From Verrucomicrobia bacterium IMCC26134 (lineage in GTDB: Bacteria > Verrucomicrobiota > Verrucomicrobiia > Opitutales > Opitutaceae): 64,000 nt of DNA. The notes below the pieces were generated by a model that was not told the origin of the DNA, made no database searches, and was given only the letters and a program-made list of their open reading frames with translations. Numbering within the stretch: position 1 is the first letter of the stretch; each line of letters begins with the position of its first letter. A program made the translations under genes and the position numbers. This document shows, in pieces, positions 33,510 to 57,424 of this stretch. The DNA lies in the NCBI GenBank assembly GCA_000972765.1, contig CP011265.1, positions 496,001-560,000 on the forward strand, written 5' to 3'.

Positions 33510-33830
33510 TCATCCCGCATCGTCCGCTTTCCCTCCATCGGCCCACGCCTTCGGAGCGTAACGAAGGGCATAACGTCGCTTCGCTTATCCATCCGGGGTG
33601 CGTTCCCCTTTTCGCCTCCGTGGCGTTTGCCGGGCTCCGGCTCAATTCAGGGGTATTTGGGCGTTGGTGCGCCCGCCGTTTCCTCCCGCTGATTCCACGC
33701 GGTCGCATGCCATGTTATTATCCCATAAAAAGTGCGGTTTATGTTGGCAGTAATTGGCGGATAGTTGTGCTACTCTTTACCTTCCCAAACTCCGCGCCTA
33801 ACCCGGCCAAGTCCTCATACAGATCCTTTC
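33510..33830. other. Gene-free region before the large operon, with short hairpins
   Basis: About 320 bases without a credible gene. The segment 33545-33700 contains several short palindromes, for example CCTTCG/CGAAGG around 33549-33567 and GGGG-TGCGTT-CCCC around 33595-33608, giving it a repeat-like or structured look; a short open frame on the minus strand (33490-33708) has a composition typical of spurious translation. The AT-richer part from 33710 to 33800 is the likely promoter region of the operon; it holds two close TTGGC direct repeats (33744-33748 and 33755-33759). Confidence 0.5.
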
Positions 33831-35255: not shown

Positions 35256-35256
35256 C

Positions 35257-37094: not shown

Positions 37095-37114
37095 TTCATC
37101 ATTCTTAATTTCGA

Positions 37115-38596: not shown

Positions 38597-38613
38597 CGCT
38601 CACATTGACCCGG

Positions 38614-40743: not shown

Positions 40744-42030
40744 ATGAGCTCCACTGCCCCAGTCCCAGCCCCCCCCGTCATCACCCGCCAGCAATGGAAA
40801 TGGTCCGCCCTCGCGGGCATGGCCTCCTACCTCGACGCCGGCTCCATCGTCGGCCTCGGCGTCGGCATGGTTAACTTTAAAAAAGCCTTCGCTCTCTCCA
40901 ACGGCGAGGTCGGCTTTCTCGCCGCCATTGGTCCCAATGCCATCGGTTGCGCCGTCGGCGCCATCGTCGGCGGCTGGCTGGGCGACAAACTCGGCCGCAA
41001 GCGCATCTATCAGTTCGATCTCATTGTTTACGCCATCGGTATCCTGCTCGCCGCCTTCGCGGTGAACAGCACGATGTTGATGATAGGCACCATCATCGTA
41101 GGACTTGCCGTCGGCGCCGATGTGCCCACCTCGCTCGCTCTTGTTGGTGAGTTCGCGCCGGACAAGGCTCGCGGAAAGCTCCTCGGCTTTACCCAGATCG
41201 CCTGGTGCCTCGGCCCGGTCGTCGTCTTCGTGATGGCCGCCCTGTTCGGCACCTTCCTTTCGCCCGAGCATCAGCTGCTGGGAACACGCATCGTGCTTCT
41301 GCACCTCTTCGTCGTTGCTCTCGTCACTTGGGCACTGCGCCAAGGCCTGACCGAGTCGGCCCGCTGGAAAGAGGCCGCGACCTCCACCACCGTAGTCCGT
41401 CAGCGCATTGGTGCGCTCTTCTCCGGGCAAAATCTACGCGCCCTTATTTGGACCGCCGCCATCTACCTCTTTTGGAATCTCGCCGCCGGCACCGCCGGCC
41501 TTTTCAATCCCTACATCATCGAGACACTCAAGGCCGGTGGTCCCGTGGCCAGCGTGCTGCTTTCGTGCTCGGGTTTCGTGATCGCGATGGTCGTCACGGT
41601 ATTGGTTTTCATGCCTCACTCCGACGGCAGTTATAAAACCCGCCGCCTCATGTGGGGCATCGGCGCGATCGTCCAGGTCACAGCCTACGCCATCCTTCTT
41701 TTCCTGCCTTTCAGTATCCCGGTCGTGCTCGCCAATATCCTGCTCTTCTCGGCCGGCGGCGCACTCGCGGGCGAGGCTTTCTACAAGGTTTTCAGCCAGG
41801 AGTTGTTCCCCACCATGCTGCGTAGCACCGCCCAGGGAATCACCTTTGGCGTGGCCCGCGTCATCCTCGGGGTCTGGAGCTTTTTTGTGCCCATGCTCGC
41901 GGAGAAAGGAATCGGCCAGATCGCCGGCCTGTTAACCCTCTTCCTCGCCATCAGCGGCGGCGTCGGCTTCTTCTTCATGCCCGACACCTCCGGCAAATCC
42001 CTTGAACAGATCGAGGCCGAGCGTTCCTGA
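40744..42030 (+). CDS. MFS transporter, sugar-porter-like
   Basis: A 428-residue membrane protein with twelve predicted helices. The first-loop signature GGWLGDKLGRKRIYQ (between helices 2 and 3), the GADVPTSLALVGEFAPDKARGK loop between helices 4 and 5, and the repeat at TESARW resemble the sugar porter and aromatic-acid porter families. It sits between a secreted arabinofuranosidase and a cytoplasmic-looking rhamnosidase, so it may import an oligosaccharide or glycoside that is cleaved inside the cell. The start ATG at 40744 follows 42 bases after the GH127 stop. Confidence 0.88.
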   Translation: MSSTAPVPAPPVITRQQWKWSALAGMASYLDAGSIVGLGVGMVNFKKAFALSNGEVGFLAAIGPNAIGCAVGAIVGGWLGDKLGRKRIYQFDLIVYAIGILLAAFAVNSTMLMIGTIIVGLAVGADVPTSLALVGEFAPDKARGKLLGFTQIAWCLGPVVVFVMAALFGTFLSPEHQLLGTRIVLLHLFVVALVTWALRQGLTESARWKEAATSTTVVRQRIGALFSGQNLRALIWTAAIYLFWNLAAGTAGLFNPYIIETLKAGGPVASVLLSCSGFVIAMVVTVLVFMPHSDGSYKTRRLMWGIGAIVQVTAYAILLFLPFSIPVVLANILLFSAGGALAGEAFYKVFSQELFPTMLRSTAQGITFGVARVILGVWSFFVPMLAEKGIGQIAGLLTLFLAISGGVGFFFMPDTSGKSLEQIEAERS

Positions 42031-42032
42031 AA

Positions 42033-44744
42033 ATGAGCTCATCGGTCACCCGGATCGCGCTTTTGCGCTGCGAATATTTGGTCGAGCCGCTCGGCCTTGA
42101 CGAACGTGCGCCGCGCCTGAGCTGGCAGCTGGATTCGGATCGCCGTGGTGCCCGCCAAATGGCCTGCCGTGTGCGTGTCGCCTCTTCGGCGGCTAAGCTC
42201 GCGGCAGGTCAGGCCGACCGCTGGGACAGCGGCCTCGTCGAGAGTGATCGGACGACGCATGTTGTCTATGCGGGCACGCCGTTGTGTTCCCGCGAAGTGT
42301 GTTTCTGGCGCGTTGAGGTCATCGACGAGACCGGAGCCACGGTTCGCTCCTCGCCCGCCCGATGGACGATGGGGCTTCTGGAGAAATCCGACTGGTCCGC
42401 CCGCTGGATCGCCGCCGATTCCGAGATAATCCGTCGCGATCCTGGCGCCACCGCGCCGACGCTTCTGGAGCCCGGCACGCCCGCTGTCTTCCGTCGCGAG
42501 TTCGACCTGCCTTCCGCCGTCGCGCGTGCCACCGTTTACGCCACCGCGCGCGGCCTCTTCACGCTCACGGCGAACACTCGCGATATCGGTTCCGATCTCT
42601 TCGCCCCCGAGTGGACTGACTACGACAAACGCATCCAATACCGCACCTACGATGTGACGTCCTTGCTCACCGCCGGCCGCAACTCGCTCGCCGCCACGCT
42701 CGGCGACGGTTGGTGGACCGGCTACGTCGGCTGGCAGGAAACACGCGCCCGCTACGGCTCGTTGGAGAACTCGTTGCTCGTCCAGCTTGAGGTCGAGCTC
42801 ACCGATGGAACCCGCCTCACCCTCGGCACCGACGGCGGCTGGCAGTGCGCCACCGGTCCGATTCTTGCGTCCGATTTCATGATGGGCGAAATCTACGACG
42901 CCCGGCGCTCGCCGCACGATTGGCTCGCGGCCCGCGAGGTCGCGGCGCCCGACGTTCCGCTCGTTGCCCAGCGCGGCGAGCCCGTTGCCATCACGGAGGA
43001 GCGCGCACCGGTTTCCAGCAACGAAATCTCGCCTGGCGTCTGGATCTACGACCTCGGCCAGAATATCTCCGGCTTCGCCCGTCTCCGCCTGCGCAACCTT
43101 CCGGCCGGCACGCGGCTGACCGTCCGCCACGGAGAACGCCTCAGCCCCGACGGCACGCTTTACGTCGAGAATTTGCGTCGCGCCAAGGCCACCGACATTT
43201 ACGTCACTCGCGGGGACGCCGAGGAGGTTTATCAGCCGCACTTCACCTTCCACGGATTCCAGTTTATCGAGCTCACCGGCCACCCGGGAACGCCGTCCGC
43301 CGACGTCGTCACCGGTTGTGTCATTCATTCCGCCACGCCGCCCGCCGGCCACTTCGAGTGCTCGCACGCCGGCGTGAATCGCCTCTGGCTCAATGGTCTC
43401 TGGTCACAGAAGGACAACTTCCTCTCCGTGCCCACCGATTGTCCGCAGCGGGACGAACGCCTCGGCTGGATGGGCGATGCCCAGGTTTTCCTCCGCACCG
43501 CGTCCTACAACATGGATGTGGCCGCCTTCTTCACCAAGTGGATGATCGACGTCGAGGATGCGCAGACGCCCGAGGGTATTTTCCCTGACGTCGCTCCTCG
43601 TCTGCGTGAGGGTGAAAACTTCATCGGCTTGGGAAATCTCGGCGGCGCCGCGGCCTGGGCGGACGCGGGCGTCATCATCCCGCACACCCTCTGGCGCGTT
43701 TACGGCGACCGCCGTATTCTTGAGCGTCACTACGGCGCGATGGTGAAGTGGGTGGATTGGATCGCCTCGCACAATCCCGGCGGCCTGCGCCTCAATCAAC
43801 TCGCCAACAACTACGGCGACTGGCTCTGCATCCCCAGTGACACCACCTTCGGCACGCATTCGCCGATGAAAAACCTGCTCGCCACGGCCTACTGGGCGGA
43901 CGACTGCACTAGGCTCGCCCAGATCGCCCGCGAGCTCGGCCGCGATGCGGATGCGGTCCGCTTCACCGCGATGTTCGAAAAGGTCCGCTCGGCTTTTCAA
44001 AACGAGTGGCTGCTGCCCGACGGCCAGCTCGCGGTCGAAACCCAGACCGCTTATCTGCTCGCCCTCGCCTTCGATCTGCTTCCCGCCGGTGTGCGAGCCC
44101 GCTCCGCCGATCGCCTCGTCGCCAATATCCGCGACCTCGACTGGCATCTCAGCACCGGCTTCGTCGGCATCAGCCACCTCAACCCGCAGCTCACGCTCGC
44201 GGGCCATGCCGATACCGCCTACAAACTGCTGCTGCGCGACGATTATCCTTCGTGGCTTTATCCGGTGAAACACGGCGCAACCACGATCTGGGAGCGTTGG
44301 AACGGCTGGACGCATGCCGAGGGCTTCTTCAACCCGCACATGAACTCGCTTAACCACTACTCGCTTGGCTCGGTCGGCGAGTGGCTGTTCCGCCATGTCG
44401 CCGGCATCGAACTCGACCCGGAAAAACCCGGGTTTCAGCATTTCATCCTTCGCCCGTTCATCCGCGATGGCCTCGACCACGCTCGCGCGACCTACCGCAC
44501 GCTCCACGGCGAGATCCTCAGCGCGTGGAAACGCGAGGGTGATCATGTCACCTGGCAAATCCGCGTGCCCGCCAATTGCACCGCGCGTGTTTATATTCCG
44601 AGCGAGGCCGGCACCGCCGTCGAAAGCGACGGGCTCGCTATCAACGCCCGTGAAGAGGGCTTCGCCGTGATCGATCAAGCACCGTCCGGCAGCTATACGT
44701 TTACCAGCACCTGCCGCGGCTTAAGCCCTGTTTCCCTTTTATGA
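42033..44744 (+). CDS. GH78 alpha-L-rhamnosidase without a signal peptide
   Basis: A 903-residue enzyme that removes terminal alpha-L-rhamnose. Domain order is typical: Bac_rhamnosid_N, rhamnosid, the (alpha/alpha)6 barrel and a C-terminal beta-domain. The barrel carries [23 protein letters not shown] (general-acid region), ANNYGDWL and [12 protein letters not shown]. Unlike the other glycosidases of the operon, its N-terminus ([15 protein letters not shown]) has no signal peptide, so it likely works in the cytoplasm on imported glycosides, for example those brought in by the MFS carrier encoded just before it (2-base gap). The stop overlaps the RraA gene. Confidence 0.93.
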
Positions 44745-45409
44745 ATGCCGAATGGAAGTCTGACGAGGAACTCTTCGCGCTGATGCGGCGCGAACTCTAT
44801 ACCCCGGTTGTAGGCGACATCCTCGACGCGCTCGGCCGCTACCACCAGTTCCTGCCGCAGCCGGTTCAGCCTCTGCGCGAGGCAATGACCATCGCGGGCC
44901 GGGCCATGCCGGTGTTGATGATCGATGTCCATGGCCCCCAACAAAAGCCTTTCGGCCTCCTGACCGAGGCGCTTGACGACCTTCGACCCGGCGAGGTTTG
45001 GGTCTGCGGTGGAGGGGCGATGCGCTGCGCCTACTGGGGCGAGTTGCTTACCGCCACCTCGCGAACTCGTGGTGCGGTCGGCGCGGTGGTGGACGGCTTT
45101 CATCGTGATACCAGACAAGTCTTGGAGCAGGACTGGCCGGTTTTTTCTCGCGGCCGGTTTGCCCAGGATTCCTCGGTGCGCACCGCTGTGGCGAACTTCC
45201 GGTGCCCCATCGAAATCGGCGGGGTGTGGATCGAGCCGGGCGACCTTGTATTCGGCGACCTCGATGGTGTCGTCATTGTGCCGCGTGCCCTCGAGGCGGA
45301 GGTTATTCCGCGTGCGCTTGCCAAGGCTCGGGGCGAAAAAGTGGTTCGCGGTGCGATCGAAGGCGGCATGAGCGCGACCGCTGCGTTCAAGAAATTCGGC
45401 ATACTCTAA
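44741..45409 (+). CDS. RraA-family aldolase/decarboxylase
   Basis: A 222-residue protein of the RraA/HMG-aldolase superfamily. These class II enzymes cleave or decarboxylate 2-oxo acids such as 4-hydroxy-4-methyl-2-oxoglutarate or oxaloacetate. The family core is present: [17 protein letters not shown] and [17 protein letters not shown], with the arginine and aspartate that bind the substrate and metal. It overlaps the GH78 stop (ATGA). In this setting it could split a 2-keto-3-deoxy acid sugar made by one of the dehydratases downstream into pyruvate and an aldehyde, but it might also be a simple oxaloacetate decarboxylase-like protein. Confidence 0.85.
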
Positions 45410-45425
45410 TTAACCGCCTCCGCTC

Positions 45426-45761
45426 ATGTCCGCCCGTTGCTTTCAAATCCACCCCTTGGATAACGTCGCGACACTGCTCGATGACGCGCCTTCCGGACCG
45501 CTCGCCTTGCTTGGCAATTCCACCGGCGGGCCTCTTTCCGCCCGCGAATCGATCGCGCGAGGCCACAAGATCGCCTTGGTCGATCTCGCGACCGGTTCAG
45601 CCGTGCTGAAGTTTGGCGTTCGCATCGGCCGCGCCACCCGCCCGATAGCGCGCGGCGACTGGGTGCACCTGCACAATCTGGCGAGTGACGTCGACCTCCG
45701 CTCCGGCACGCTCGACCTGCACACCGGAGCGCCCACGGACACGGATTCTGCCTATGTCTGA
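45426..45761 (+). CDS. UxaA-type dehydratase, small SAF-domain subunit
   Basis: A 111-residue protein corresponding to the N-terminal SAF domain of altronate and galactarate dehydratases ([13 protein letters not shown], later [13 protein letters not shown]). In several members the SAF part is a separate subunit, as in altronate-type dehydratases and in sulfolactate sulfo-lyase. The gene overlaps the large subunit by 8 bases, so the two form one enzyme. The likely reaction is dehydration of an aldonic acid to a 2-keto-3-deoxy acid. Confidence 0.85.
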
Positions 45762-46971
45762 TGCTGGCAACTACGCACCATGGACCGGATTTCTGCGACC
45801 TGACGGTCGCAAGGGAGTGCGTAATCTCGTGCTTGTTGTCTACACCGTCGAGTGCGCCCAGCACGTCGCGCACGCGATCGCCGCCCACGAGGAGGATGTG
45901 CAGGTCATCGGCTTTCCCGGATGTTATGACAACGCCTACGCGATCCGACTTATGCTCGCGTTGGCCCGCCATCCCAATGTCGGCGCGGTGCTCGCGGTCG
46001 GCCTTGGCTGCGAATATACCCAGCCGGAAAAAATCGCCGCCACTGTGGCCGCCTCGGGGCGTCCGGCCGAGTGGTTCTTTATCCAGCAACAGGGAGGCAC
46101 CGTCCGCTCCATCGCCGCCGGCAAGGAGCACGTTCGCCGACTTCGGGCCCGTATCCGCGCCGAGGCGGTTGCCGTGCCGATGACGCTTGCCGATCTCGTG
46201 ATCGGCGCTGAGTGCGGCGGGTCCGATGGAAGTTCCGGTCTCGCGGGCAATCCCGTGGTCGGGGCGTGCTTTGATTTACTCGTCGCCGCCGGTGGGCGTG
46301 CGGTTTTTGAGGAAACCGTCGAGATGATCGGACTGCGCGACCACTTGCTGTCCCGCGCAGCCACGCCTGAGGCTGCCCGCCAGCTTGCGGCGGCCTACGA
46401 CAAGGCTGAGACCTATTGCCGCGAGGTCCGGCAGTTCTCCGTCTCGCCGGGTAATTTCGCCGGCGGTCTCACCACCATCGAAGAGAAGAGTCTGGGCGCT
46501 TTCGCCAAGGGCGGAACGCAGCCGATTCAGGGCATCATCAAAGTATCCGAGGCTCCACCGCGGCCCGGCCTCTGGATTATGGACAGTGTTCCTGATTCCC
46601 ACTTCATGCAGTTCGGCTATACCAATCCGAACGACACCGAGGGCATCATCGATTTGATCAGCGCTGGCGCCCAAGTAGTGCTCTTCGTGACCGGACGCGG
46701 CAGCGTGATCGGCAGTCCGGTTGCCCCGCTGCTCAAGGTCACTGGCAACAGCGCCACCTTCCGGGCTCTCTCTGATGACATGGACTTTGATGCCGGACGC
46801 GTGCTCTCCGGTGAAGTCACCCTCGAGCAGGCGGGACGCGAGTTGCTGCAGCTCGTGCGCGACACGGCGGCGGGAGCCATGAGCCAGCCGGAACGTCTCG
46901 GTCATCGTGAGTATTTCATTATGTATAAACATCAGGATACCCCGGCGCTCGCCGCCGGCTGCCGCGCATGA
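45754..46971 (+). CDS. UxaA-type dehydratase, large catalytic subunit
   Basis: A 405-residue protein matching the C-terminal catalytic domain of UxaA family hydro-lyases: [17 protein letters not shown] near the start, [44 protein letters not shown] and the conserved [26 protein letters not shown]. These proteins use Fe or Mn to dehydrate acid sugars. The substrate cannot be read; a sulfolactate lyase is less likely because no sulfonate gene is nearby. It uses the ATG at 45754; its stop overlaps the SDR start. Confidence 0.88.
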
Positions 46972-47729
46972 ACTCCTCCGCCTTTAATCTCTCCCAACAA
47001 ACCGCCTTGATCACCGGCGGCGGCACCGGCCTCGGTTTCGGTGTCGCCCGCTGCCTTGTCGCCTCGGGGGCGCGAGTCGTCCTCGTCGGCCGCCGTGCGG
47101 ATGAACTCGGGCAGGCCTGCGCCGCTCTCGGGCCGTCCGCCCTCGCGTTGCCGGGCGACATCACGGATTTGGAAAGTGTTCCTCGACTCGCCGCCGAGGC
47201 GGAGCGGCTCGCGGGACCGATTTCGATTCTGGTTAACAACGCCGGCATCCACCTCAAAAAACTCGCGGTCGATACGACGGACAATGAGTTCGATCGCGTC
47301 ATGCAGACCCACCTCAACGGTGCCTTCGCGCTTACGCGCGAGGTCGGGCGGCGAATGCTTGAGCGCAAACATGGGAGCATCATTTTCATGGCCTCGATGG
47401 CCTCCTTCATCGGCATGCCGCGCATCGTCGCCTACTCGGCGGCCAAGAGCGCCTACGTCGGCGTGGTGCGCACGCTCTCGACCGAGTGGGGCGGCCAGGG
47501 CGTGCGGGTAAACGCAATCGCGCCGGGCTGGATCGCCTCTCCGATGCTTGATCAGGCTCTTTCCGGTGATCCGGAGCGCAAGGCCAAGATCCTCGGCCGC
47601 ATCCCTGCGGGCGGATTCGGCGAGCCTAACGACATCGGCTGGGCGGCCGTTTACCTTTGCTCACCCGCCGCGAAATACGTCAACGGCGTCGTGCTGCCCG
47701 TCGATGGTGGCGCGGCGGAGAGTTTCTGA
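46968..47729 (+). CDS. Short-chain dehydrogenase/reductase (SDR)
   Basis: A 253-residue NAD(P)-dependent oxidoreductase. The cofactor motif [10 protein letters not shown] lies in the first beta-alpha unit, NNAG follows near residue 90, and the catalytic set is SMASFIG...YSAAK. The tail [16 protein letters not shown] is typical of classical SDRs related to gluconate 5-dehydrogenase and KduD. In the operon it may oxidise or reduce an acid sugar or its 2-keto-3-deoxy product. It starts inside the previous stop (ATGA). Confidence 0.9.
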
Positions 47730-47746
47730 TCCTGCCGAGAGCGACC

Positions 47747-48859
47747 ATGAAGATCACCGGCCTTACTCCCTTTATTCTGCACGCACCGGTCACACGCGGT
47801 GGCATTGCCGATAGCACCCACCGTATCACGCATTGGGGGGCGCCGGGCGTCGCCATCCAAGCTGACAATGGTCTTGTGGGTTACGGTTTTTCAGGCACCC
47901 ACGCTCACCTGCCGACGGATCGTCTGATCGTGGATTGCGCCATTCACAGTTACGGCCCGCTGCTCCTGGGCGAGGACCCGCGCGAAGTCCGCGCGCTTTG
48001 GGAAAAGCTGCACAAGCACCCGCCTGTCCAGTGGGTCGGCCGGAGCGGTATCACCCATCTAGCCCTCGGGGCCATCGATATCGCGCTCTGGGACCTGAAG
48101 GCAAAAGCCGCCGGTCTTCCCCTCTGGAAACTCCTCGGAGGCTCCGCTTCCAAAAAAGTCGAGGCCTACAACACCGACGGGGGCTGGCTTAACTGGCCGC
48201 TCGAAACCCTGGTGTCCGATTGCAAACGCATGGTTGAGACCGAGGGTTATCGCGCGGTTAAAATCAAGGTCGGCAGCCCGGATATTTCCACCGACCTGCG
48301 GCGTCTCGCCGCCGTGCGCGAAGCACTCGGCCCGGATGTCCGGATCATGACCGATGCCAACGGAAAACTCACCTTGCCGGAAGCCATCCGTCTCGGCCGT
48401 CGTCTTGCCGATTTCGATATCGTCTGGTTCGAGGAACCGACCACCTTTGACGACGTGATCGCGCACCGCCGTCTGGCCGAGGCCATCGAAACCCCCATCG
48501 CCCTCGGCGAGCAGTTGTATCTCGCGCATCAATTTCGCGATTTTATCCACGCGGGTGCGGTCCACTTTGTTCAACCCGACGTCGTTCGCCTGGCCGGAAT
48601 CACCGAGTTCTGGCAGGTTGCCGACCTCGCGCACAGTTACAGCCTGCCGGTTGTTCCCCACGTAGGCGACATGTGCCAGGTGCACCAGCACCTCTGTTTC
48701 GCCCATCCGGCCTGCCGGCTGCTCGAATACATCCCCTGGCTCCGTGATTGGATGCTGCATCCCGCGCAGATTCAGGATGGATATTATGTCGCACCGGAAG
48801 CACCCGGTGCCGGCATGGAGCCGACGCAGGAGGCCCTCGCTAAAATCAACCGCTTATGA
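47747..48859 (+). CDS. Enolase-superfamily (mandelate racemase/muconate lactonizing type) acid-sugar dehydratase
   Basis: A 370-residue barrel enzyme. Active-site residues: KxK at Lys172-Lys174 (VKIKVG), metal ligands Asp203 (DANG), Glu229 (FEEP) and Glu255 (LGEQ), then Asp278 and His305 (VPHVGDM) forming the His-Asp dyad of the mandelate racemase subgroup. This set is used by acid-sugar dehydratases such as those for rhamnonate, fuconate, galactarate and talarate, which make 2-keto-3-deoxy acids. It lies 17 bases after the SDR and its stop overlaps the RuBisCO-like gene start. The exact sugar acid is unknown. Confidence 0.9.
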   Translation: MKITGLTPFILHAPVTRGGIADSTHRITHWGAPGVAIQADNGLVGYGFSGTHAHLPTDRLIVDCAIHSYGPLLLGEDPREVRALWEKLHKHPPVQWVGRSGITHLALGAIDIALWDLKAKAAGLPLWKLLGGSASKKVEAYNTDGGWLNWPLETLVSDCKRMVETEGYRAVKIKVGSPDISTDLRRLAAVREALGPDVRIMTDANGKLTLPEAIRLGRRLADFDIVWFEEPTTFDDVIAHRRLAEAIETPIALGEQLYLAHQFRDFIHAGAVHFVQPDVVRLAGITEFWQVADLAHSYSLPVVPHVGDMCQVHQHLCFAHPACRLLEYIPWLRDWMLHPAQIQDGYYVAPEAPGAGMEPTQEALAKINRL

Positions 48860-50112
48860 GCATGGAACGAGTCACCGCCACCTACCGGATCGAAACGTCG
48901 CTGCCTGTCGCCAAGGCCGCCGCCACCCTCGCGGGCGAGCAATCCTCCGGCACCTTCGTCTCCGTCCCGGGCGAGACTGCCGAGCTGAAGCAACGCTTCG
49001 CCGCCCGGGTCGAGCGTATCGTGGAGCTAGAAACGGTTTCGTCGCCCTCGCTGCCCACCGGCCGTGCTCCCGCCGACGCCTACCGTCGCGCCGAGGTCAC
49101 GGTGTCTTGGTCGATCGAGAACTTCGGCACCAACCTCGCCGCGCTCGTCTCCACCTTGCAGGGAAATCTCTACGAGCTCGCGCAGTTCTCCGGGCTGAAG
49201 CTGGTGGATTTTGACGTGCCCCCGTCCTTCACCGCCGCCTTTCGCGGTCCCGCCTTTGGGATTCCGGGTTGTCGCCGCCTCACGGGTGTCGAGGGCCGGC
49301 CCTTGATCGGCACGATCATCAAACCCAGCATCGGGCTCACCTCTGCGCAAACGGCTGCGATGGTGAAAGAGCTGGTCGGCGCGGGCATCGACTTTCTTAA
49401 GGACGACGAATTGATGGCAGACCCGCCGCACTCGCCGTTCGACGAGCGGGTGGACGCCGTCATGCGTGTCATCAACGACCACGCCCAGCGCACCGGAAAG
49501 AAGGCGATGTATGCCTTCAACGTCAGCGGCGAGCATGATGCCATGCAGCGCCACTACGATAAAGTCGTGTCCGCCGGCGGCACCTGTGTGATGGTGAGCC
49601 TCAACAGCGTCGGTCTCGTCGGGGCGAAAAGCATCTGCGACCGCGGCCAGCTTGCCATTCACGGACACCGCAACGGCTGGGGTATGCTCAACCGCCATCC
49701 GCTGCTCGGCATGGAGTTCCCCGCCTACCAGAAGCTCTGGCGTCTCGCCGGTGTGGACCAGCTTCACGTCAATGGAATCGCCAACAAGTTCTGGGAGCCT
49801 GACGATTCCGTGGTTCGCTCCATCGAATCCTGTCTCGCGGTCGCCCCCTTGGGCAAACCGCTGCTTCCGGTCGTTTCCTCCGGTCAGTGGGGTGGGCAGG
49901 CGCCCGAGACCTGGCGCCGCACGAGGACCACGGATCTGCTTTATATGGCCGGCGGTGGCATTCAGGCGCATCCCGATGGCCCCGCCGCCGGGGTGCGTTC
50001 GCTGCAACTTTGGTGGGAGGCCGCCGTTGATGGACTTTCCTTCGCCGATGCCATCGCGAAGTATCCCGCGCTTGCCAAATCCGCCGCCAAGTTCGGCTCA
50101 GCCACATCCTGA
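48856..50112 (+). CDS. RuBisCO-like protein (RuBisCO large-subunit superfamily)
   Basis: A 418-residue member of the RuBisCO large-chain superfamily that is not a bona fide carbon-fixing RuBisCO (no small subunit, no Calvin-cycle genes). Key residues in RuBisCO numbering are largely kept: Lys175 (Lys156 in TIIKPSIGL), the carbamylated Lys201 with Asp203 and Glu204 (Lys182, Asp184, Glu185 in FLKDDE), His294/Arg295 (His271, Arg272), His327 (His304), Lys334 (Lys311), Ser379 region (SSGQ) and the phosphate loop GGGIQAHPDG. Lys177 is replaced by Ser158 and Trp66 by Phe34. Known relatives that keep this set act as decarboxylases or transcarboxylase/hydrolases on 3-oxo-acid phosphates in D-apiose catabolism. 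The kinase gene follows after 3 bases. Confidence 0.9.
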   Translation: MSMERVTATYRIETSLPVAKAAATLAGEQSSGTFVSVPGETAELKQRFAARVERIVELETVSSPSLPTGRAPADAYRRAEVTVSWSIENFGTNLAALVSTLQGNLYELAQFSGLKLVDFDVPPSFTAAFRGPAFGIPGCRRLTGVEGRPLIGTIIKPSIGLTSAQTAAMVKELVGAGIDFLKDDELMADPPHSPFDERVDAVMRVINDHAQRTGKKAMYAFNVSGEHDAMQRHYDKVVSAGGTCVMVSLNSVGLVGAKSICDRGQLAIHGHRNGWGMLNRHPLLGMEFPAYQKLWRLAGVDQLHVNGIANKFWEPDDSVVRSIESCLAVAPLGKPLLPVVSSGQWGGQAPETWRRTRTTDLLYMAGGGIQAHPDGPAAGVRSLQLWWEAAVDGLSFADAIAKYPALAKSAAKFGSATS

Positions 50113-50115
50113 ACC

Positions 50116-51384
50116 ATGCTTCGCCTCGCCTATTTTGCCGATGATTTCACGGGCGCGACAGACGCCCTCGAATCGCTCGCCCGCGCCGGTCTGCGCACGC
50201 GGCTTTTCCTCGATCCGCCCTCCGCCGCGCAGTGCGCCGGACTCGACGCCATCGGGGTCGCCGGTCTCGCCCGTTCGCTTGCGCCCGACGCCATGGAGGC
50301 GGTGCTGCGCACGGCCTTCACAAAGCTGCGCGAACTCGGACCGCGCCACGTCCACTACAAGGTCTGCTCGACCTTCGATTCTTCCCCGACCTTGGGCAGC
50401 ATCGGCCGCGCGATCGATGTCGGCGCATCCGTCTTTGGCGGGACGGTGGTGCCTCTACTCGTCGCGGCGCCCGCGCTGGGGCGTTTCTGTGCATTTGGAA
50501 ATCTTTACGCCCGCTACGGCATCGGCAGCGGGGGATCCATTTATCGGCTCGACCGGCATCCGTCGGTCAGCAAGCACCCTGTGACCCCCATGACCGAGGC
50601 TGACTTGCGGGTGCACCTGGGCAAACAGACGACCAAGTCGATCGGGTTGCTCGATATGACTGAGTTGGAGCGTTCCTTTGAGGAGAGCGCCGCTGCGCTG
50701 CAGAAGCTCGTTACAGGCGGGCATGAGGTTGTTCTTTTTGACGGATTAAATGGCGCCCACCTCTCGCGCGTCGGAGCACTCATCGACGGACTTGCCGGGG
50801 CAGCTCCCTTGTTCTCGGTTGGCTCCTCCGGCGTCGGGTCGGCGTTGACCTCATTTTGGGGTGCATCGGCGAAGCCTTTGGCCGCCGCGTCCCGGGCGGC
50901 TTCTCCGCTGCTGGTGCTCTCGGGCAGTTGCTCGCCAGTTACTGGAGGCCAGATCGCATGGGCTCGGGCCAACGGCTTCGACGGCTTCGCCCTGTCGCTC
51001 GATTGCTCCGATTCTTCGGCTGCGCTTGGGCCTATTGTGGAAGCGCTCCGGGCCGGACGAAACGTGGTCGCCTACACGAGTCTCGGCCATGCCAAGGCGC
51101 ATTTGCCGGCCGAACAGCTTGGCACGATGCTAGGTGTGCTTGCGCGGAAAGCCATCTCAGGTGCCGAGGTGAAGCGCATCGTCGTGGCGGGTGGCGACAC
51201 TTCCAGTTACGCCGGTCGCGCGCTCGGGATCGAATCCCTGGAAATGCTCGCGCCGCTTGCGCCGGGAGCGCCGCTTTGTCGGGCCCGCGCGCCCGGTTCC
51301 CCGGCCGACGGTTTGGAGATTGTTTTCAAGGGCGGGCAGGTAGGCGCGCCCGATTTCTTCGCCCATGCGGGCGGTCACTCTTAA
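50116..51384 (+). CDS. DUF1537 four-carbon acid-sugar kinase family protein
   Basis: A 422-residue ATP-dependent kinase of the DUF1537 family (OtnK/DtnK/OiaK type), which phosphorylates 3-oxo or hydroxy acid sugars. The N-terminal substrate-binding domain starts with YFADDFTGATDALESL; the ATP-binding C-terminal domain shows LVLSGSCSPVTGGQI, VAGGDTSSYAG and IVFKGGQVGAPDFF. It is directly downstream of the RuBisCO-like gene, the arrangement used in 3-oxo-isoapionate catabolism, where the kinase makes the substrate for the RuBisCO-like enzyme. The acid sugar here is not proven. Confidence 0.9.
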   Translation: MLRLAYFADDFTGATDALESLARAGLRTRLFLDPPSAAQCAGLDAIGVAGLARSLAPDAMEAVLRTAFTKLRELGPRHVHYKVCSTFDSSPTLGSIGRAIDVGASVFGGTVVPLLVAAPALGRFCAFGNLYARYGIGSGGSIYRLDRHPSVSKHPVTPMTEADLRVHLGKQTTKSIGLLDMTELERSFEESAAALQKLVTGGHEVVLFDGLNGAHLSRVGALIDGLAGAAPLFSVGSSGVGSALTSFWGASAKPLAAASRAASPLLVLSGSCSPVTGGQIAWARANGFDGFALSLDCSDSSAALGPIVEALRAGRNVVAYTSLGHAKAHLPAEQLGTMLGVLARKAISGAEVKRIVVAGGDTSSYAGRALGIESLEMLAPLAPGAPLCRARAPGSPADGLEIVFKGGQVGAPDFFAHAGGHS

Positions 51385-51418: not shown

Positions 51419-52078
51419 ATGTCCCGTAAAACCCTCGCTCTCATTCACACATCCGCGACCTTGGTTCCGGTGTTTCAGCAGCTCTGCAAGGCGCAGCTGC
51501 CGAACGTCGACACCTTTAATATCGTTGATGACAGCCTGGTGCGCGCCATCGGCGCGAAGGGCGCGCTGACCGCCGACATCGCACGCCGTGTCGAGGCTTA
51601 CATCACGTCCGCCGAGGCGGGCGGGGCCGATTATATTCTCGTCACCTGTTCATCCATCGGACCGGCGGTCGAAGCCTCCGCGCCTTTCTGTGCGGTGCCC
51701 GTGTTGCGTGTTGATCAACCGATGGCGGACGCGGCGGTCGCTGCCGGCCGGCGCATCGGGGTGATTGCGACCCTGCCTACCACCTTGAATCCGACCTCCG
51801 ATCTCGTTCGCCGTCGTGCTGCGCTGGCGGGAAAGGAGATCGAGCTGACTTCGCGCCTGGTTGACGGTGCATTCGCCGCACTCATGGCCGGCGACGCCGC
51901 GACGCACGACACGCTCGTCGCCGCCGCGCTGCGCGAATTGTCAACCCAGGTGGATGTCGTTCTTCTCGCCCAGGCCTCGATGGCCCGCGTCGTGGACACC
52001 TTGCCCGAGGCCGACCGTCGTGTGCCGATTTTCGCCAGCCCGCCTACGGCGATTGCCCATCTCTCAACTGTGCTTTAA
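51419..52078 (+). CDS. Aspartate/glutamate/hydantoin racemase-like protein with a single catalytic Cys
   Basis: A 219-residue protein of the Asp/Glu racemase superfamily. The first-domain cysteine is present (Cys77 in LVTCSSIGP) but the second position, normally Cys in an LxC motif, is Gln185 in VVLLAQASMARV. A two-base racemase would need both. Family members with one cysteine include arylmalonate decarboxylase-type and isomerase enzymes, although in that decarboxylase the retained cysteine is the other one. It may act on an acidic intermediate of the pathway, or bind it. It sits 34 bases after the kinase and 4 bases before the transporter. Confidence 0.82.
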   Translation: MSRKTLALIHTSATLVPVFQQLCKAQLPNVDTFNIVDDSLVRAIGAKGALTADIARRVEAYITSAEAGGADYILVTCSSIGPAVEASAPFCAVPVLRVDQPMADAAVAAGRRIGVIATLPTTLNPTSDLVRRRAALAGKEIELTSRLVDGAFAALMAGDAATHDTLVAAALRELSTQVDVVLLAQASMARVVDTLPEADRRVPIFASPPTAIAHLSTVL

Positions 52079-52082
52079 TCCG

Positions 52083-53384
52083 ATGCTCCCTCTCCGCAAA
52101 CTCTGCCTAGCCCTGTCCGTGCCCGCTGTGCTCGGCGTTCTCGTCGGCCTATTGCTCGGCTCCGCCGCCGTCTGGGCGCCCTGCGCGGTCGTGGCCGCGG
52201 TCGGGCTGGCGCTCGGCCTCGGCTCGTTGCCTTCGCTCAAGAGCTACCAATATACCGCGTGGATCATAGCTGCCGTGGTGGCGGCCATGATTTATCCCGC
52301 CGCCTTTTCCAATTGGGGGCCCGTCGAGTTGCGCCACAAGTGGGTCGTGCTCCTGGTCGTGCAGACGGTGATGTTTGGCATGGGAACGCAGATGAGCATG
52401 AAGGACTTTGTGGGCGTCTTGAAAATGCCCTGGGGTGTGGTTGTCGCCGTCTCATGTCAGTTCCTTGTCATGCCGCTCGCTGGATGGGCGCTAACCCGAT
52501 TTTTCTCTCTGCCCGATGAGATCGCGGCGGGCGTCATTTTGATCGGCTGCTGCTCCAGCGGTCTCGCGTCGAATGTCATGTGCTACATTGCCAAGGCCAA
52601 TCTTGCACTGTCGATCACCGCCACGGCCATCACCACCTTGATTGCCCCGATCATGACACCCTTTTGGATGAAGATATTGGCTGGTTCGCTCGTCGAGGTG
52701 CGCTTTCTGAGCATGGCGACCGAGATCGTGAAAATCGTGATCGTCCCCATCGGTGCCGCCCTCCTGCACGAATACCTAAAGGGGGCGCTTCCCGCCGCGA
52801 AACGTCGTTTCGCACTCGCAGAAGGGGCCTGCGCCTTCGGTGCCGGATTGATCTTCGCGAATCGCAACGCCCCCTGGGTCGCCGCGCTTTCTCCCGACGC
52901 CGGCCTCGGGCTGGAGTTGCTGGGCTTCTTGCTCGGCGCGGTCGCCTTTGGCGGCCTCTACCACCGCATAACCCGCGCGCTGCCCAAACTCGATTCTTAC
53001 ATGCCCCTGCTCTCCATGGCAGGAATCGTGTATTTCACTACCATCACGACCGCCGCCGGGCGCAACAACCTCCTGCTCGTCGGCGGCGTGCTCATCCTTG
53101 TCGCGATGCTGCACAACACCGCCGGCTACTTCTTCGGTTACTGGCTGGCCCGCCTGGCCCGTCTCGACAAGGCTTCCTGCCGCACCGTCGCCATCGAGGT
53201 CGGCCTGCAAAACGGCGGCATGGCCTCGGGCCTCGCGGGCGCGATGGGAAAACTTGCCACCGTCGGCCTTGCCGCAGCCGTCTTCAGTCCTTGGATGAAT
53301 GTCTCCGGTTCCATCCTCGCGAATTTATGGCGTAGGCGCCCGGTGGGCAGTTCGGACGATTCCGACTGCTCCGCAAAATCCTGA
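52083..53384 (+). CDS. BASS family (bile acid:sodium symporter-like) transporter
   Basis: A 433-residue membrane protein with about ten helices. The BASS family features are a helix pair with FGMGTQMSMKDFVGVLKMP, the discontinuous helix GVILIGCCSSGLASNVMCYIAKANLALSITATA, and the second crossover near TVAIEVGLQNGGMASGLA. Family members move organic acids, such as pyruvate, pantoate or bile acids, with sodium. In this operon it may import an acid sugar that feeds the dehydratases and the RuBisCO-like enzyme, or export a product. Its start ATG is at 52083, 4 bases after the previous stop. Confidence 0.88.
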   Translation: MLPLRKLCLALSVPAVLGVLVGLLLGSAAVWAPCAVVAAVGLALGLGSLPSLKSYQYTAWIIAAVVAAMIYPAAFSNWGPVELRHKWVVLLVVQTVMFGMGTQMSMKDFVGVLKMPWGVVVAVSCQFLVMPLAGWALTRFFSLPDEIAAGVILIGCCSSGLASNVMCYIAKANLALSITATAITTLIAPIMTPFWMKILAGSLVEVRFLSMATEIVKIVIVPIGAALLHEYLKGALPAAKRRFALAEGACAFGAGLIFANRNAPWVAALSPDAGLGLELLGFLLGAVAFGGLYHRITRALPKLDSYMPLLSMAGIVYFTTITTAAGRNNLLLVGGVLILVAMLHNTAGYFFGYWLARLARLDKASCRTVAIEVGLQNGGMASGLAGAMGKLATVGLAAAVFSPWMNVSGSILANLWRRRPVGSSDDSDCSAKS

Positions 53385-53398
53385 GCAGCCTGCCCCGA

Positions 53399-56300
53399 AT
53401 GTCTGTCTCCCGCTTTTTCTCCTCTGCGTTTTTGTGCGCGGTTTCGTTAGCGGGCGTCTGCGCGTCTGCCGCCGAATCGAACTCTTCAGCGGACCCGCTC
53501 GCGGCTGGCTTCGCGTCGCCTCCAGCCGACGCCCGTCCGCGCACGTTTTGGCTGTGGATGAATGGCAACGTCACGCGCGAGGGCATCACTCTGGACCTCG
53601 AAGCCATGCACCGGGTCGGGGTAGGGGGCGTGATGATGTTCGACGGCAGCGATTATCTGCCGGCAGGCCCGGCGGGCTACCTGGATGCGAATTGGCGCGC
53701 GCTCATGACGCACGCGATTCAGGAGGGAAATCGACTGGGCATTGATATCGGCATGCACAACGCACCCGGTTGGTCGAGCAGTGGAGGCCCTTGGGTCACG
53801 CCGGAGATGTCCATGCAGCAACTCACGTGGACCGAGACCTCCGTCGCAGGCGGCCGGCGCGTGGAGATCGACCTCGTCCGTCCGCACACCAACGAGGGTT
53901 TCTATCGCGATGCCTATGTCATTGCCTTCCCTTCGCCACCGGCGGAAACGGTGCCCTACGAGCAGGCGCTTTCGCGCGTGAGTTCGGGCGGCGCGGAGCT
54001 GTCCAAGGCTGTGCTCAGCGACGGCTTGTTCGAAACGACGGCCAAAGTTTCTGCTGATTCTCCGGTGCTCTTTGAGTTCGTCGAACCGGTGGAGTTGCAT
54101 GGGCTCACCGTCCTGCCTGCGTTGAAGGGGCGCTTCCCGCGTCTGCAAATCGAGGCGTCGACCGATGGCGTTTCTTTTACCTTGGTGTGCACGGTCGGAG
54201 CGCCAGGCCGCCACGGGATCGTCGCGCCAGGTGCGAGCGCTTTCGCACCGATACGGGCGCGTTTCGTGCGGGTGACGCCTTCGCGCGAGGGCGAGATTGC
54301 CGATCTCGTTTTTCACCGGACCCCGCGCATCGTCGATTGGGTGGCCAAGGCCAATTTCGACTACCGCGTGACCGGACAGTTCACATTCCCTGCGCCGGTG
54401 CTCTCTTCGGCTGCCATTGATCCAAAGTCCGTTCTCGATCTGACGGGAAAACTGAAGGGAGACCGGCTGTTCTGGGATTCGCCCGCAGGCGCGTGGACAA
54501 TACTGCGTATCGGCCATACCAGCACAGGCCAGAAAAACGTCGCCGCGTCCGCCGCCGGACGCGGCCTGGAAATCGACAAGTTCAATCCCTCCGCGGCCGA
54601 GTTTCACTTTCATCACGTGATTGACCGGGTCGCGGCCGATGCCGCGGCAGCCGGTGCAAAAGGCCCGGCCACCGTCACGATCGATAGTTACGAGGCCGGC
54701 ATGCAGAACTGGACCGAGGCGTTGCCAGCCGAGTTTCACCGCCGCGCAGGTTATCCAATCACAGCCTATTTACCCGCACTCGTCGGCCGGGTCGTGGGAG
54801 ACTCCGGCGTGTCGGAAAGATTCCTTTTCGATTTTCGCCGCGTGCAGGCCGATCTCATGGCGGAGAATTACTACGGGCGCATGCATCAACTTGCGCGTGA
54901 TCGCGGGTTGCGTTTCTTCGCCGAGGGCTACGGTCCGGGTAATTTTGACGAGTTGCGCGTCTCCGGTCTCGCCGACGTGCCGATGACCGAGTTTTGGACG
55001 CGCACACCGTGGACCCCCAATCGAGTGGTGAAGATGGTCACCTCGGCCGCGCACATCTATGGCAAACAGGTTGTCGGCGCCGAGTCCTTCACCGGCGAGT
55101 TCAAGACCTCACGCTGGCTCGAGTATCCCTATGCGCTGAAAATCCTCGGCGACGAGATGGCTGCGCAGGGTGTCAACCTGACCGTTTTTCACCGTTACGC
55201 CCATCAACCTCATCCCGATGCGGCGCCTGGAATGGCGATGGGCCCGTATGGCTTTTTCTTCGATCGCACGAACACCTGGTTCGAGCAGAGCAAGGGCTGG
55301 ATCGATACCGTGGCGCGCACCGGGTTTCTGCTCCGTCAGGGCACCTTCGCGGCTGACGTGCTCTACTTCACCGGCGAACGTTCGCCCGATCCCTCGCAAT
55401 ATGCGATGCCGGAGCTGCCGGCTGGGTATACCTACGATCTGGTCAATACCGACGTGCTGCTTAACCGCATCACGGTGCGCGACGGTGCCTACGAATTGCC
55501 CGAGGGCGCACGCTACCGGTTGCTGGTGCTGCCGCCAGACCTCAGCGCGATGCGACCCGCGCTGGCGGCCAAGTTGAGGGACTTCGTCGAAGCGGGCGGC
55601 GCGTTGCTCGGCCCCAAGCCCGGTTTCTCGCCCTTGCTGATTGATTACCCGTCCAGCGAGCACGAGATGCTGCGCATCGCCGATGAACTCTGGGCTCCGC
55701 AGCGCCAGGGGCCCGGCCGTGTGTTTGCCACCGGCACGATCGGCGAGGCCCTCACCGAGCTCGGCGTGGCTCCCGACGTCACGTGGCGCGGCGAGCGGCC
55801 CGACGCCGACCTGTCCTGGCAGCACCGTAAACTGCCCGACGGCGATCTTTTCTTCCTCGCCAACCGCCAGCGTCGCGCCGAATCCGTCGTCGTTTCTTTT
55901 CGTGGAATGGCAGGCTGCCAGCCCGAGCTCTGGAGCCCGGAGACCGGCACCAGCCGCCTCGCCGCCGTGCATGACAAGGCCGGCGACCGCGCGCTCCTGC
56001 CGCTCACCTTCGATCCAGCGGAGTCAGTCTTTGTGCTGTTTCGCCGGCCCGCCGCGCCCGCAGACGCGCCGCTGCGCAAGGATGGGCGCGATCTTGTTTC
56101 AATCACTCCTGTGACCGCGCCTGCACCTGTGGCGAGCGGATCGTTTGCCATGTCGATCTGGCTCAAGCCTGATACCGATTTACGCGTGATGCCGAAGGAG
56201 TCGATCACAGGCCGGATCGACGAGGTGGGTAAGTTTTACGCCATCCCCGCTGACCCCGGGGACCTGCGTTTTGGTGCCGGACATGCCACCGCCGGTCTCG

Positions 56301-57424
56301 CAGTCGGCCGCAACGGTATCTTCGTCGTCGAGCGCACCAGCGATTCGTGTCCGGCGGTGCTCGTCGCCGACGTAAAAGTCTCCGGCTGGACCCATGTCGC
56401 GGTCGTTTATCGCGACGGCAAACCTCGTCTCTACGTCAACGGCACCTTCATCCGCGAAGGAATTTCCTCGGGGAAAATTGTTCACTCGGGCGTGGGTTCG
56501 CCGATTCCGCCGGTCGATTACACGCTTAACTTCAATGGCGTCGCCGCCTTGACGCGCGCCGCCGGTCAGCCACCACCGACCTCGCGCGGACAGGTCTTTT
56601 ATTTCGAAGGCAATTCTGTTCCGCCTGTCACCATCGCGGGCGCGGTGGACGATGCCGCCATCGCCGCACTCGCCCCCAAGGGATTGCCCGCGCCGACCTT
56701 GCCAGACATCACCGATCTCGCCCGTCGTGCCGATGGCGTCGTGACCGCGCTCGTCTGGGAAGCCGGCCTTTACTCAATTGGGAACGGGCCAGGCACTTCA
56801 GCCATCGTGCGCGCGCCCGTGACGCTCGCTGGGCCGTGGCGAGTGGAGTTTCAGGCCGGACGCGGTGCACCGGAGTCGGTGCAGTTGCCCGAACTCCATT
56901 CGCTGCATCTCAATGCCGACCCCGGCGTGAAGTATTTTTCCGGCACGGCCACCTACACACATGACCTCGACGTGTCGGCGGCAGACCTCGTTCCCGGACA
57001 TCGCGTGATACTGGACCTCGGCCGTGTGGAGGTGGTCGCGGATGTCGTGATCAACGGACGCAGCGTCGGCCAAGTCTGGAAGGAACCTTATCGCCTCGAC
57101 GTGACGGATGCCGTGCACCCCGGCGCGAATCCGCTCGAGATCCGCGTGACCACGCTCTGGCCCAATCGTCTGATCGGCGACGAACAACTGCCTCCCGAGG
57201 ACGAGTTCGGGATCCGCGACGAGCAGGGCAACGACCCGCACGGCATCACGCGTTTACCCGACTGGTATAAGAACGGAAAACCGAAGCCTCCCGGCGGCCG
57301 CGTGACTTTCGCGACGTGGAAGTTTTACGACAAGGACGAGCCCCTCGTCGCCTCCGGCCTGCTCGGTCCGGTTCGCTTGCTCAACCCGGTGAGAGTGGAG
57401 CTTACGGCGCAACGGCAGCAGTGA
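53399..57424 (+). CDS. Secreted GH106 alpha-L-rhamnosidase with inserted LamG-like domain
   Basis: A 1341-residue exported enzyme, the last gene of the operon (14 bases after the transporter). Signal peptide in residues 1-24. The N-terminal barrel matches GH106 (RPRTFWLWMNGNVTREGITLDLEAMHRVGVGGVMMFDG, then GMHNAPGWSSSGGPWVTPEMSMQQ, and TIDSYEAGMQNWTEALPAEFHRR with the candidate acid/base glutamate, and FAEGYGPGNFDELRVSG). Residues about 900-1050 form a LamG/concanavalin-like sandwich (SFAMSIWLKPDTDLRV, WTHVAVVYRDGKPRLYVNG) inserted before the terminal galactose-binding-like domain. GH106 enzymes remove alpha-L-rhamnose from pectin rhamnogalacturonans; one characterised member acts on rhamnogalacturonan II. 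Confidence 0.9.
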   Translation: MSVSRFFSSAFLCAVSLAGVCASAAESNSSADPLAAGFASPPADARPRTFWLWMNGNVTREGITLDLEAMHRVGVGGVMMFDGSDYLPAGPAGYLDANWRALMTHAIQEGNRLGIDIGMHNAPGWSSSGGPWVTPEMSMQQLTWTETSVAGGRRVEIDLVRPHTNEGFYRDAYVIAFPSPPAETVPYEQALSRVSSGGAELSKAVLSDGLFETTAKVSADSPVLFEFVEPVELHGLTVLPALKGRFPRLQIEASTDGVSFTLVCTVGAPGRHGIVAPGASAFAPIRARFVRVTPSREGEIADLVFHRTPRIVDWVAKANFDYRVTGQFTFPAPVLSSAAIDPKSVLDLTGKLKGDRLFWDSPAGAWTILRIGHTSTGQKNVAASAAGRGLEIDKFNPSAAEFHFHHVIDRVAADAAAAGAKGPATVTIDSYEAGMQNWTEALPAEFHRRAGYPITAYLPALVGRVVGDSGVSERFLFDFRRVQADLMAENYYGRMHQLARDRGLRFFAEGYGPGNFDELRVSGLADVPMTEFWTRTPWTPNRVVKMVTSAAHIYGKQVVGAESFTGEFKTSRWLEYPYALKILGDEMAAQGVNLTVFHRYAHQPHPDAAPGMAMGPYGFFFDRTNTWFEQSKGWIDTVARTGFLLRQGTFAADVLYFTGERSPDPSQYAMPELPAGYTYDLVNTDVLLNRITVRDGAYELPEGARYRLLVLPPDLSAMRPALAAKLRDFVEAGGALLGPKPGFSPLLIDYPSSEHEMLRIADELWAPQRQGPGRVFATGTIGEALTELGVAPDVTWRGERPDADLSWQHRKLPDGDLFFLANRQRRAESVVVSFRGMAGCQPELWSPETGTSRLAAVHDKAGDRALLPLTFDPAESVFVLFRRPAAPADAPLRKDGRDLVSITPVTAPAPVASGSFAMSIWLKPDTDLRVMPKESITGRIDEVGKFYAIPADPGDLRFGAGHATAGLAVGRNGIFVVERTSDSCPAVLVADVKVSGWTHVAVVYRDGKPRLYVNGTFIREGISSGKIVHSGVGSPIPPVDYTLNFNGVAALTRAAGQPPPTSRGQVFYFEGNSVPPVTIAGAVDDAAIAALAPKGLPAPTLPDITDLARRADGVVTALVWEAGLYSIGNGPGTSAIVRAPVTLAGPWRVEFQAGRGAPESVQLPELHSLHLNADPGVKYFSGTATYTHDLDVSAADLVPGHRVILDLGRVEVVADVVINGRSVGQVWKEPYRLDVTDAVHPGANPLEIRVTTLWPNRLIGDEQLPPEDEFGIRDEQGNDPHGITRLPDWYKNGKPKPPGGRVTFATWKFYDKDEPLVASGLLGPVRLLNPVRVELTAQRQQ

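Follow-up and report, generated by a model that had tools for sequence, protein, structure and literature searches.

The window analysed here, a 64,000-nucleotide stretch at positions 496001-560000 of the one-contig genome of Verrucomicrobia bacterium IMCC26134 (CP011265.1; 4.0 Mb, 100% complete), contains a conserved gene unit encoding a RuBisCO-like protein (RLP), an acid-sugar kinase and a protein of the Asp/Glu racemase fold. The substrate of this unit is probably aceric acid, whichever of two outcomes the RLP reaction may have. Aceric acid, among the rarest of pectin sugars, is a conserved constituent of rhamnogalacturonan II (RG-II), from which a known enzyme releases it. A literature search, largely without reach into subscription papers, found no described route for aceric acid breakdown, and the novelty of the pathway proposed below is provisional.

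About 130 loci were compared. RLP relatives were gathered from GTDB genomes (80), from a sample of 384 genomes of the class (16) and from wider stretches of sampled genomes (40), and neighbouring genes were sought at each locus with proteins from the window and from an apiose-type locus (L071). Loci with the racemase-fold protein are called sister loci (n=48) and loci with the oxidoisomerase ApnO apiose-type loci (n=40); neighbour counts are from tblastn on contigs of metagenome-assembled genomes, some of them short. Profile cut-offs were 700 bits for OiaX (NF042437), 700 bits for OiaK and 950 bits for aceric acid hydrolase (NF049879). The genes on which the argument turns are the following.

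48856..50112, + strand: RLP of 418 amino acids, aceric-type clade (Pfam, curated models, structure search, alignment, tree); predicted transcarboxylase/hydrolase or decarboxylase of 3-C-carboxy-5-deoxypentulose 1-phosphate
50116..51384, + strand: OiaK-like acid-sugar kinase of 422 residues (DUF1537, SBD_N/NBD_C; domain and OiaK models); predicted to phosphorylate a primary hydroxyl beside a ketone
51419..52078, + strand: Asp/Glu-racemase-fold protein (start picked from homologues and an in-frame ATG); predicted aldose-ketose isomerase of aceric acid
52083..53384, + strand: SBF/BASS-family sodium symporter, PanS-like (family models; start at an in-frame ATG); predicted aceric acid importer
38560..40701, + strand: predicted GH127 aceric acid hydrolase (acerase; NF049879 and nearest PDB entry; exact start codon not settled)

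The RuBisCO-like protein and its clade

The RLP matches RuBisCO_large of Pfam at 194 bits and the N-terminal domain at 34 bits, both over cut-off, and is the sole RuBisCO large-chain family match in the whole genome; its best match among solved structures is 3NWR (E 4e-116). With RuBisCO domains and changed canonical residues, it belongs to form IV of the RuBisCO superfamily. Alignment to a form III RuBisCO and other RLPs, by which the residue numbering was checked, shows that the carbamate/metal site is kept (K182-D183-D184-E185 = K201/D203/E204), as are K156 (K175), H271 (H294), R272 (R295), H304 (H327), K311 (K334), S342 (S379) and the GGG loop (G366-G368); the catalytic residues listed as retained in a first-pass annotation of this DNA (FLKDDE, the Lys of IKP, His271, His304, Lys311 and GGG) are thereby confirmed. 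The substitutions are F34 for W66, S158 for K177, and Gln for G381. The first two had been read correctly in that annotation, but they do not distinguish this protein: F34 is also present in 39 of 40 ApnO-type rows and 7 of 7 OiaX rows of the alignment, and S158 in all 40 ApnO-type rows. A special meaning of Ser158 and Phe34 was rejected, both changes being family-wide and standard in related apiose RLPs. At E60, N123 and H327 (E28, N104 and H304 of the window RLP), in contrast, the OiaX rows are changed (D28, G104 and Q304) and the clade of the window RLP retains all three, as do the non-OiaX apiose RLPs of the alignment. Residues specific to the clade are Q102, adjacent to N123, F129, G264 and N279, candidates for lining a pocket that would accommodate the extra CH(OH)CH3 group of the proposed substrate.

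OiaX is the best-scoring curated family (509.8 bits), yet the score is below the NF042437 cut-off, whereas true OiaX proteins, encoded in genomes of the Microvirga order, reach 758-791 bits; the MtnW models give 119-163 bits against cut-offs of 409-514. A 121-row tree places the protein inside a 52-row set (SH-aLRT 100), and in a tree of 95 rows its clade holds 36 of 36 rows with bootstrap/SH-aLRT support of 100/100, the bootstrap being not fully settled. The clade spans Verrucomicrobiota, Planctomycetota and Bacteroidota, and it nests among apiose-type RLPs; in both trees the window protein is outside the OiaX clade. The protein is thus not a member of the OiaX equivalog family, by score or by tree placement. 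The placement among form IV groups that the first-pass annotation had proposed is answered for OiaX in this way.

Two other RLP groups were observed in these comparisons. A separate, well-supported group that includes 3NWR (L131, L132, L135, L136, L137 and L156) has the kinase with neither ApnO nor the racemase-fold protein. Proteobacterial RLP-kinase pairs with genes for short-chain dehydrogenases/reductases (SDR) and no ApnO (L073, L079, L081, L121, L122, L123 and L130) possibly represent a third, hamamelose-like pathway.

The gene unit and its association with acerase

Each of the 48 loci that have the racemase-fold protein carries both the RLP and the kinase; ApnO is found in 40 other loci, and no locus has both (p = 4e-12). 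The SBF symporter is present in 30 of the 48 sister loci and GH127 in 22, versus none of the 40 apiose-type loci in either case; of the apiose-type loci, 17 have the ApnL lactonase and 21 a Gfo/Idh dehydrogenase. Neither an oxidoreductase nor an aldolase is conserved in the unit across the sister loci. In the cultured Rufibacter tibetensis 1351, the genes for RLP, kinase, racemase-family protein and symporter are consecutive and lie among pectin genes, the first three being DC20_RS22050, DC20_RS22045 and DC20_RS22040. Neither ApnO (PF16896) nor ApnL (NF049900) has a match in the whole complete genome of IMCC26134, both models matching in the three apiose-type genomes used as positive controls. 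The window RLP is therefore most likely not one of the oxidative D-apiose pathway, the genomes of which would have the D-apionate oxidoisomerase and the lactonase, and the lack of these two enzymes that the first-pass annotation had pointed out in the cluster extends to all 4.0 Mb.

The RLP stop codon ends at 50112 and the kinase starts at 50116, leaving the 3 bases that had been annotated between them. The kinase has the DUF1537 domains but scores 365.6 bits against the OiaK model and falls outside that family at its cut-off. The enolase-superfamily dehydratase upstream had been described as fused into the unit in place of the missing apiose enzymes; it is instead a separate gene with a 4-base overlap (ATGA) with the RLP start and no protein fusion, and a lineage-specific neighbour found in 7 of 48 sister loci. 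The conserved partner is the racemase-family protein (51419-52078), absent from that annotation and often followed by the SBF symporter.

The racemase-fold protein has a single invariant Cys (VTCSS), the site of the second catalytic Cys being AQASM in 37 of 37 aligned sequences, and is thus not a two-base Asp/Glu racemase with two catalytic Cys. Its predicted structure (pLDDT 95.9) has the Asp/Glu racemase fold (TM about 0.5-0.8 to solved family members) and no nucleotide-binding domain. Because a single base is better suited to a 1,2 proton shift than to racemisation, an isomerase role is proposed for this protein, the weakest of the assignments made here. The wider one-Cys subfamily (CSS...AQASM) includes genes of rhizobia, Deinococcus and Croceibacterium (L163, L164, L165, L166 and L167) that adjoin FAD oxidoreductases, MFS transporters or a class II aldolase; to our knowledge, no member of this subfamily has been characterised.

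The PDB entry nearest to the window GH127 is 5MQO (667 bits; next 349), which we take to be the acerase BT_1003. In the class sample (n=384), an aceric-type RLP is encoded in 14 genomes, and an acerase of at least 870 bits is encoded in 14 of these 14 versus 2 of the 370 others (p = 9e-24); the two class genomes with an apiose-type RLP (G381 and G125) have no acerase. In three genera (g1, g9 and g14) the members have both the acerase and the aceric-type RLP or neither. In G006, G264 and G349 the two genes are on different contigs, and close linkage alone therefore does not explain the co-occurrence. Outside the class sample, about 19 of 22 genomes of the racemase type encode a high-scoring acerase, compared with 3 of 27 genomes with other RLPs; the acerases of Pelobium and Gramella are over the full 950-bit cut-off (that of Gramella approximately 10 kb from the RLP). 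Acerase scores in Bacteroidota sister genomes are 1115 and 1160 bits. An adjacency of GH127 and RLP genes in Croceibacterium was rejected as support, since the GH127 there reaches only 87 bits with the acerase model and the RLP is of the apiose type.

Proposed pathway and alternatives

3-Oxo-isoapionate is HOCH2-CO-C(OH)(COOH)-CH2OH. When the carbonyl of aceric acid is shifted from C1 to C2, the product is HOCH2-CO-C(OH)(COOH)-CH(OH)CH3, one C-methyl group apart from 3-oxo-isoapionate. Aceric acid itself is 3-C-carboxy-5-deoxy-L-xylose (PMC8218411), and RLPs of Agrobacterium and Xanthobacter are summarised in PMC6302742 as decarboxylating, and as transcarboxylating and hydrolysing, 3-oxo-isoapionate 4-phosphate. 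Aceric acid would need only an isomerase, whereas 3-oxo-isoapionate needs an NAD-linked oxidoisomerase, which fits the exchange of ApnO for a cofactor-free protein; likewise, a redox-neutral isomerisation that starts from an aldose acid is consistent with the unit having no conserved oxidoreductase.

The substrate, every catalytic step and transport are predicted from neighbourhood, co-occurrence and chemistry. The GH127 acerase of the cluster would free aceric acid from side chain B of RG-II, and the SBF symporter, where present, would import it. The single-Cys racemase-fold protein, acting with one base, or another isomerase may then convert aceric acid to HOCH2-CO-C(OH)(COO-)-CH(OH)-CH3, the primary hydroxyl of which would be phosphorylated by the OiaK-like kinase to give the C-methyl homologue of 3-oxo-isoapionate 4-phosphate. 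If the RLP is OiaT-like, the carboxyl group would shift to the adjacent keto carbon and hydrolysis would yield 3-phosphoglycerate and L-lactate; if it is OiaX-like, CO2 would be released and a 5-deoxypentulose 1-phosphate would remain for an aldolase. The OiaT-like route is mildly favoured, because E60, N123 and H327 are kept and the unit lacks a conserved aldolase. The scheme in full, in which the RLP converts the aceric ketose phosphate to 3-phosphoglycerate and L-lactate by internal carboxyl transfer and hydrolysis with no redox step or aldolase, fed by a previously unknown one-Cys aldose-ketose isomerase of the racemase fold, is a tentative possibility, less likely than not.

Several observations weigh against aceric acid as the substrate or against particular steps. 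One-Cys racemase homologues with 45-52% identity adjoin FAD oxidoreductases in rhizobia and, in a glycan operon of Deinococcus, a class II aldolase; the subfamily is thus broader than the pathway, and the assignment as an isomerase is unspecific. The symporter is recognised in only 30 of the sister loci. The window GH127 scores 884.7 bits (E 4e-266) against NF049879, below the cut-off and thus outside the family as curated. Two genomes of the RLP clade (L045 and L047) have no acerase, three apiose-type genomes have one, G137 and G290 have a strong acerase and no aceric-type RLP, and Bacteroides ihuae matches acerase but not RuBisCO_large; the acerase-only genomes either leave aceric acid unused or have another route. 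The p-values take no account of shared descent, yet the contrasts within genera and between phyla point the same way. Finally, the structures and products of the OiaT and OiaX reactions are taken here as background, apart from the summary in PMC6302742.

The suggestion in the first-pass annotation of a new RLP reaction on a different 3-oxo acid sugar phosphate holds in that the protein is most likely not an apiose enzyme, is allied to OiaX/OiaT-type RLPs and is best read as acting on a different branched substrate; it named none, and neighbourhood, co-occurrence and chemistry point to the aceric acid of RG-II. That the RLP functions as OiaX or OiaT on 3-oxo-isoapionate 4-phosphate from D-apiose, with the oxidations carried out by unrecognised enzymes, is unlikely: its nearest characterised relatives are apiose RLPs, its kinase is OiaK-like, RG-II contains apiose as well as aceric acid and a GH140-type apiosidase is encoded in the genome, but ApnO and ApnL have no match in the complete genome while the positive controls do, the racemase-fold partner, having no nucleotide-binding domain, could not carry out an NAD-linked oxidation, a gene set suited to non-oxidative apiose use lies alongside, and the RLP is in a separate clade associated with acerase. 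Apiose was rejected as the substrate on the absence of the oxidative-pathway enzymes from the complete genome. With aceric acid retained as the substrate, the RLP might be a simple OiaX-like decarboxylase releasing CO2 and 5-deoxy-L-pentulose 1-phosphate, which a rhamnulose-1-phosphate-type aldolase would cleave to dihydroxyacetone phosphate and acetaldehyde. OiaX is indeed the best-scoring family (510 bits), and the genome encodes class II aldolases, one of them carrying an SDR domain in the manner of RhaD/dehydrogenase fusions; this variant is nevertheless the somewhat less likely of the two outcomes, as the three residues changed in OiaX are all kept and the unit has no conserved aldolase.

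In the window, the dehydratase gene tightly overlaps that of the RLP (ATGA) and an adjacent SDR could make a 3-oxo acid, which would suit an RLP that acts on an aldonate- or aldarate-derived 3-oxo acid phosphate in concert with these dehydratases, the SDR and the RraA-type aldolase. Such a partnership is very improbable, because among the sister loci these genes are rare (SDR 2/48, MR_MLE 7/48, RraA 1/48, UxaA 2/48) while RLP, kinase and racemase-fold protein are kept. Some other branched acid sugar might be the substrate, such as one derived from hamamelonate, as for the RLP of the D-hamamelose pathway of Ochrobactrum; an RLP in D-hamamelose use yields 3-phosphoglycerate and glycolate according to PMC8914248, and the D-hamamelose RLP (Kim et al. 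2018) is cited as an oxygenase in PMC10176493. The hamamelose route requires dehydrogenases, of which none is conserved in the unit, and the cluster hydrolases are pectin-type and the acerase co-occurs, so that there is little likelihood of such a substrate.

Neighbouring genes and relation to known systems

The remaining features of the cluster are listed below with their occurrence in the sister loci where counted.

33765..35255, + strand: L-fucose-isomerase-like (FucI-like) protein, adjoining the unit
about 35167-36093 and 35841-37094, + strand: split transketolase, adjoining the unit
37115..38596, + strand: FGGY kinase (GlpK-like), adjoining the unit
40744..42030, + strand: MFS transporter (16/48)
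42033..44744, + strand: GH78 alpha-L-rhamnosidase (18/48)
44741..45409, + strand: RraA-type aldolase (1/48)
45426-45761 (SAF half) and 45685-46971 (C-terminal half), + strand: split galactarate/altronate-type dehydratase (UxaA-type, 2/48)
46968..47729, + strand: SDR (2/48)
47747..48859, + strand: enolase-superfamily dehydratase (MR_MLE; 7/48)
53399..57424, + strand: GH106 alpha-L-rhamnosidase (665 bits)
59341..61737, - strand: GH95 glycosidase of the fucosidase/galactosidase family (family models)

The block between the GH78 and RLP genes (44741..48859) is judged to be an insert outside the conserved unit, mostly private to the lineage, and its dehydratases, SDR and RraA-type aldolase were rejected as pathway partners on their presence in only 1-7 of 48 sister loci. 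The set of FucI-like, transketolase and FGGY kinase genes, in contrast, is found in 15-22 of 48 sister loci versus 0 of 40 apiose-RLP loci, in Verrucomicrobiota and Planctomycetota. The non-oxidative D-apiose route consists of an isomerase, an apulose kinase and a two-subunit transketolase, and the genes at 33765-38596 resemble it; a literature search found no paper on apulose with transketolase. With such a set, these bacteria could use apiose independently of the RLP, which would then be free for aceric acid. Large DUF6298 proteins (L031, L032, L033, L035 and L036) and DUF5703 proteins (L034, L038 and L039) are encoded beside the unit in Planctomycetota and Bacteroidota and are candidate RG-II hydrolases.

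Among RLPs, the closest known systems are OiaX, a 3-oxo-isoapionate-4-phosphate decarboxylase, and OiaT, a transcarboxylase/hydrolase of the same compound in Xanthobacter, both reported by Carter et al. in 2018. Like OiaX, the window protein is a form IV RLP with a DUF1537 kinase and shares the carbamate Lys, metal ligands, IKP Lys, loop-6 Lys and the change of W66 to Phe; unlike OiaX, it scores 510 bits against a cut-off of 700, lies outside the OiaX clade (100/100), keeps E60, N123 and H327, and has no ApnO, ApnL or apiose dehydrogenase nearby. All active-site residues compared are common to the window RLP and the non-OiaX apiose-type RLPs, presumably including OiaT, which on residue comparison is probably nearest to it in mechanism; unlike the OiaT group, it is in a clade of its own, in a tree with no authentic OiaT, and its partners are a racemase-fold protein and an acerase instead of ApnO and ApnL. 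The D-hamamelose RLP oxygenase (Kim, Lim and Lee 2018) is similar, by description only, in converting a phosphorylated derivative of a branched sugar to 3-phosphoglycerate and a hydroxy acid, although the sugar is different. MtnW (2,3-diketo-5-methylthiopentyl-1-phosphate enolase) has in common the RLP fold and the 1-phosphate of a 5-substituted pentulose skeleton, but the window RLP is far below the MtnW cut-offs. The third gene of the unit shares with the Asp/Glu/hydantoin racemase family (PF01177) the fold, in a predicted model, and the first catalytic Cys, and differs from the two-base racemases in having AQASM at the second.

Each part of the proposed pathway is a single soluble enzyme amenable to expression, and the RLP-kinase-racemase-symporter unit also occurs in cultured hosts. 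If the prediction is true, the pathway would fill a gap in aceric acid breakdown, bring one more substrate to the few that characterised RLPs are known to use, and imply a new activity in the racemase fold. Apiose-type and aceric-type RLPs would then offer a natural comparison of how the RuBisCO fold chooses between decarboxylation and carboxyl transfer with hydrolysis.

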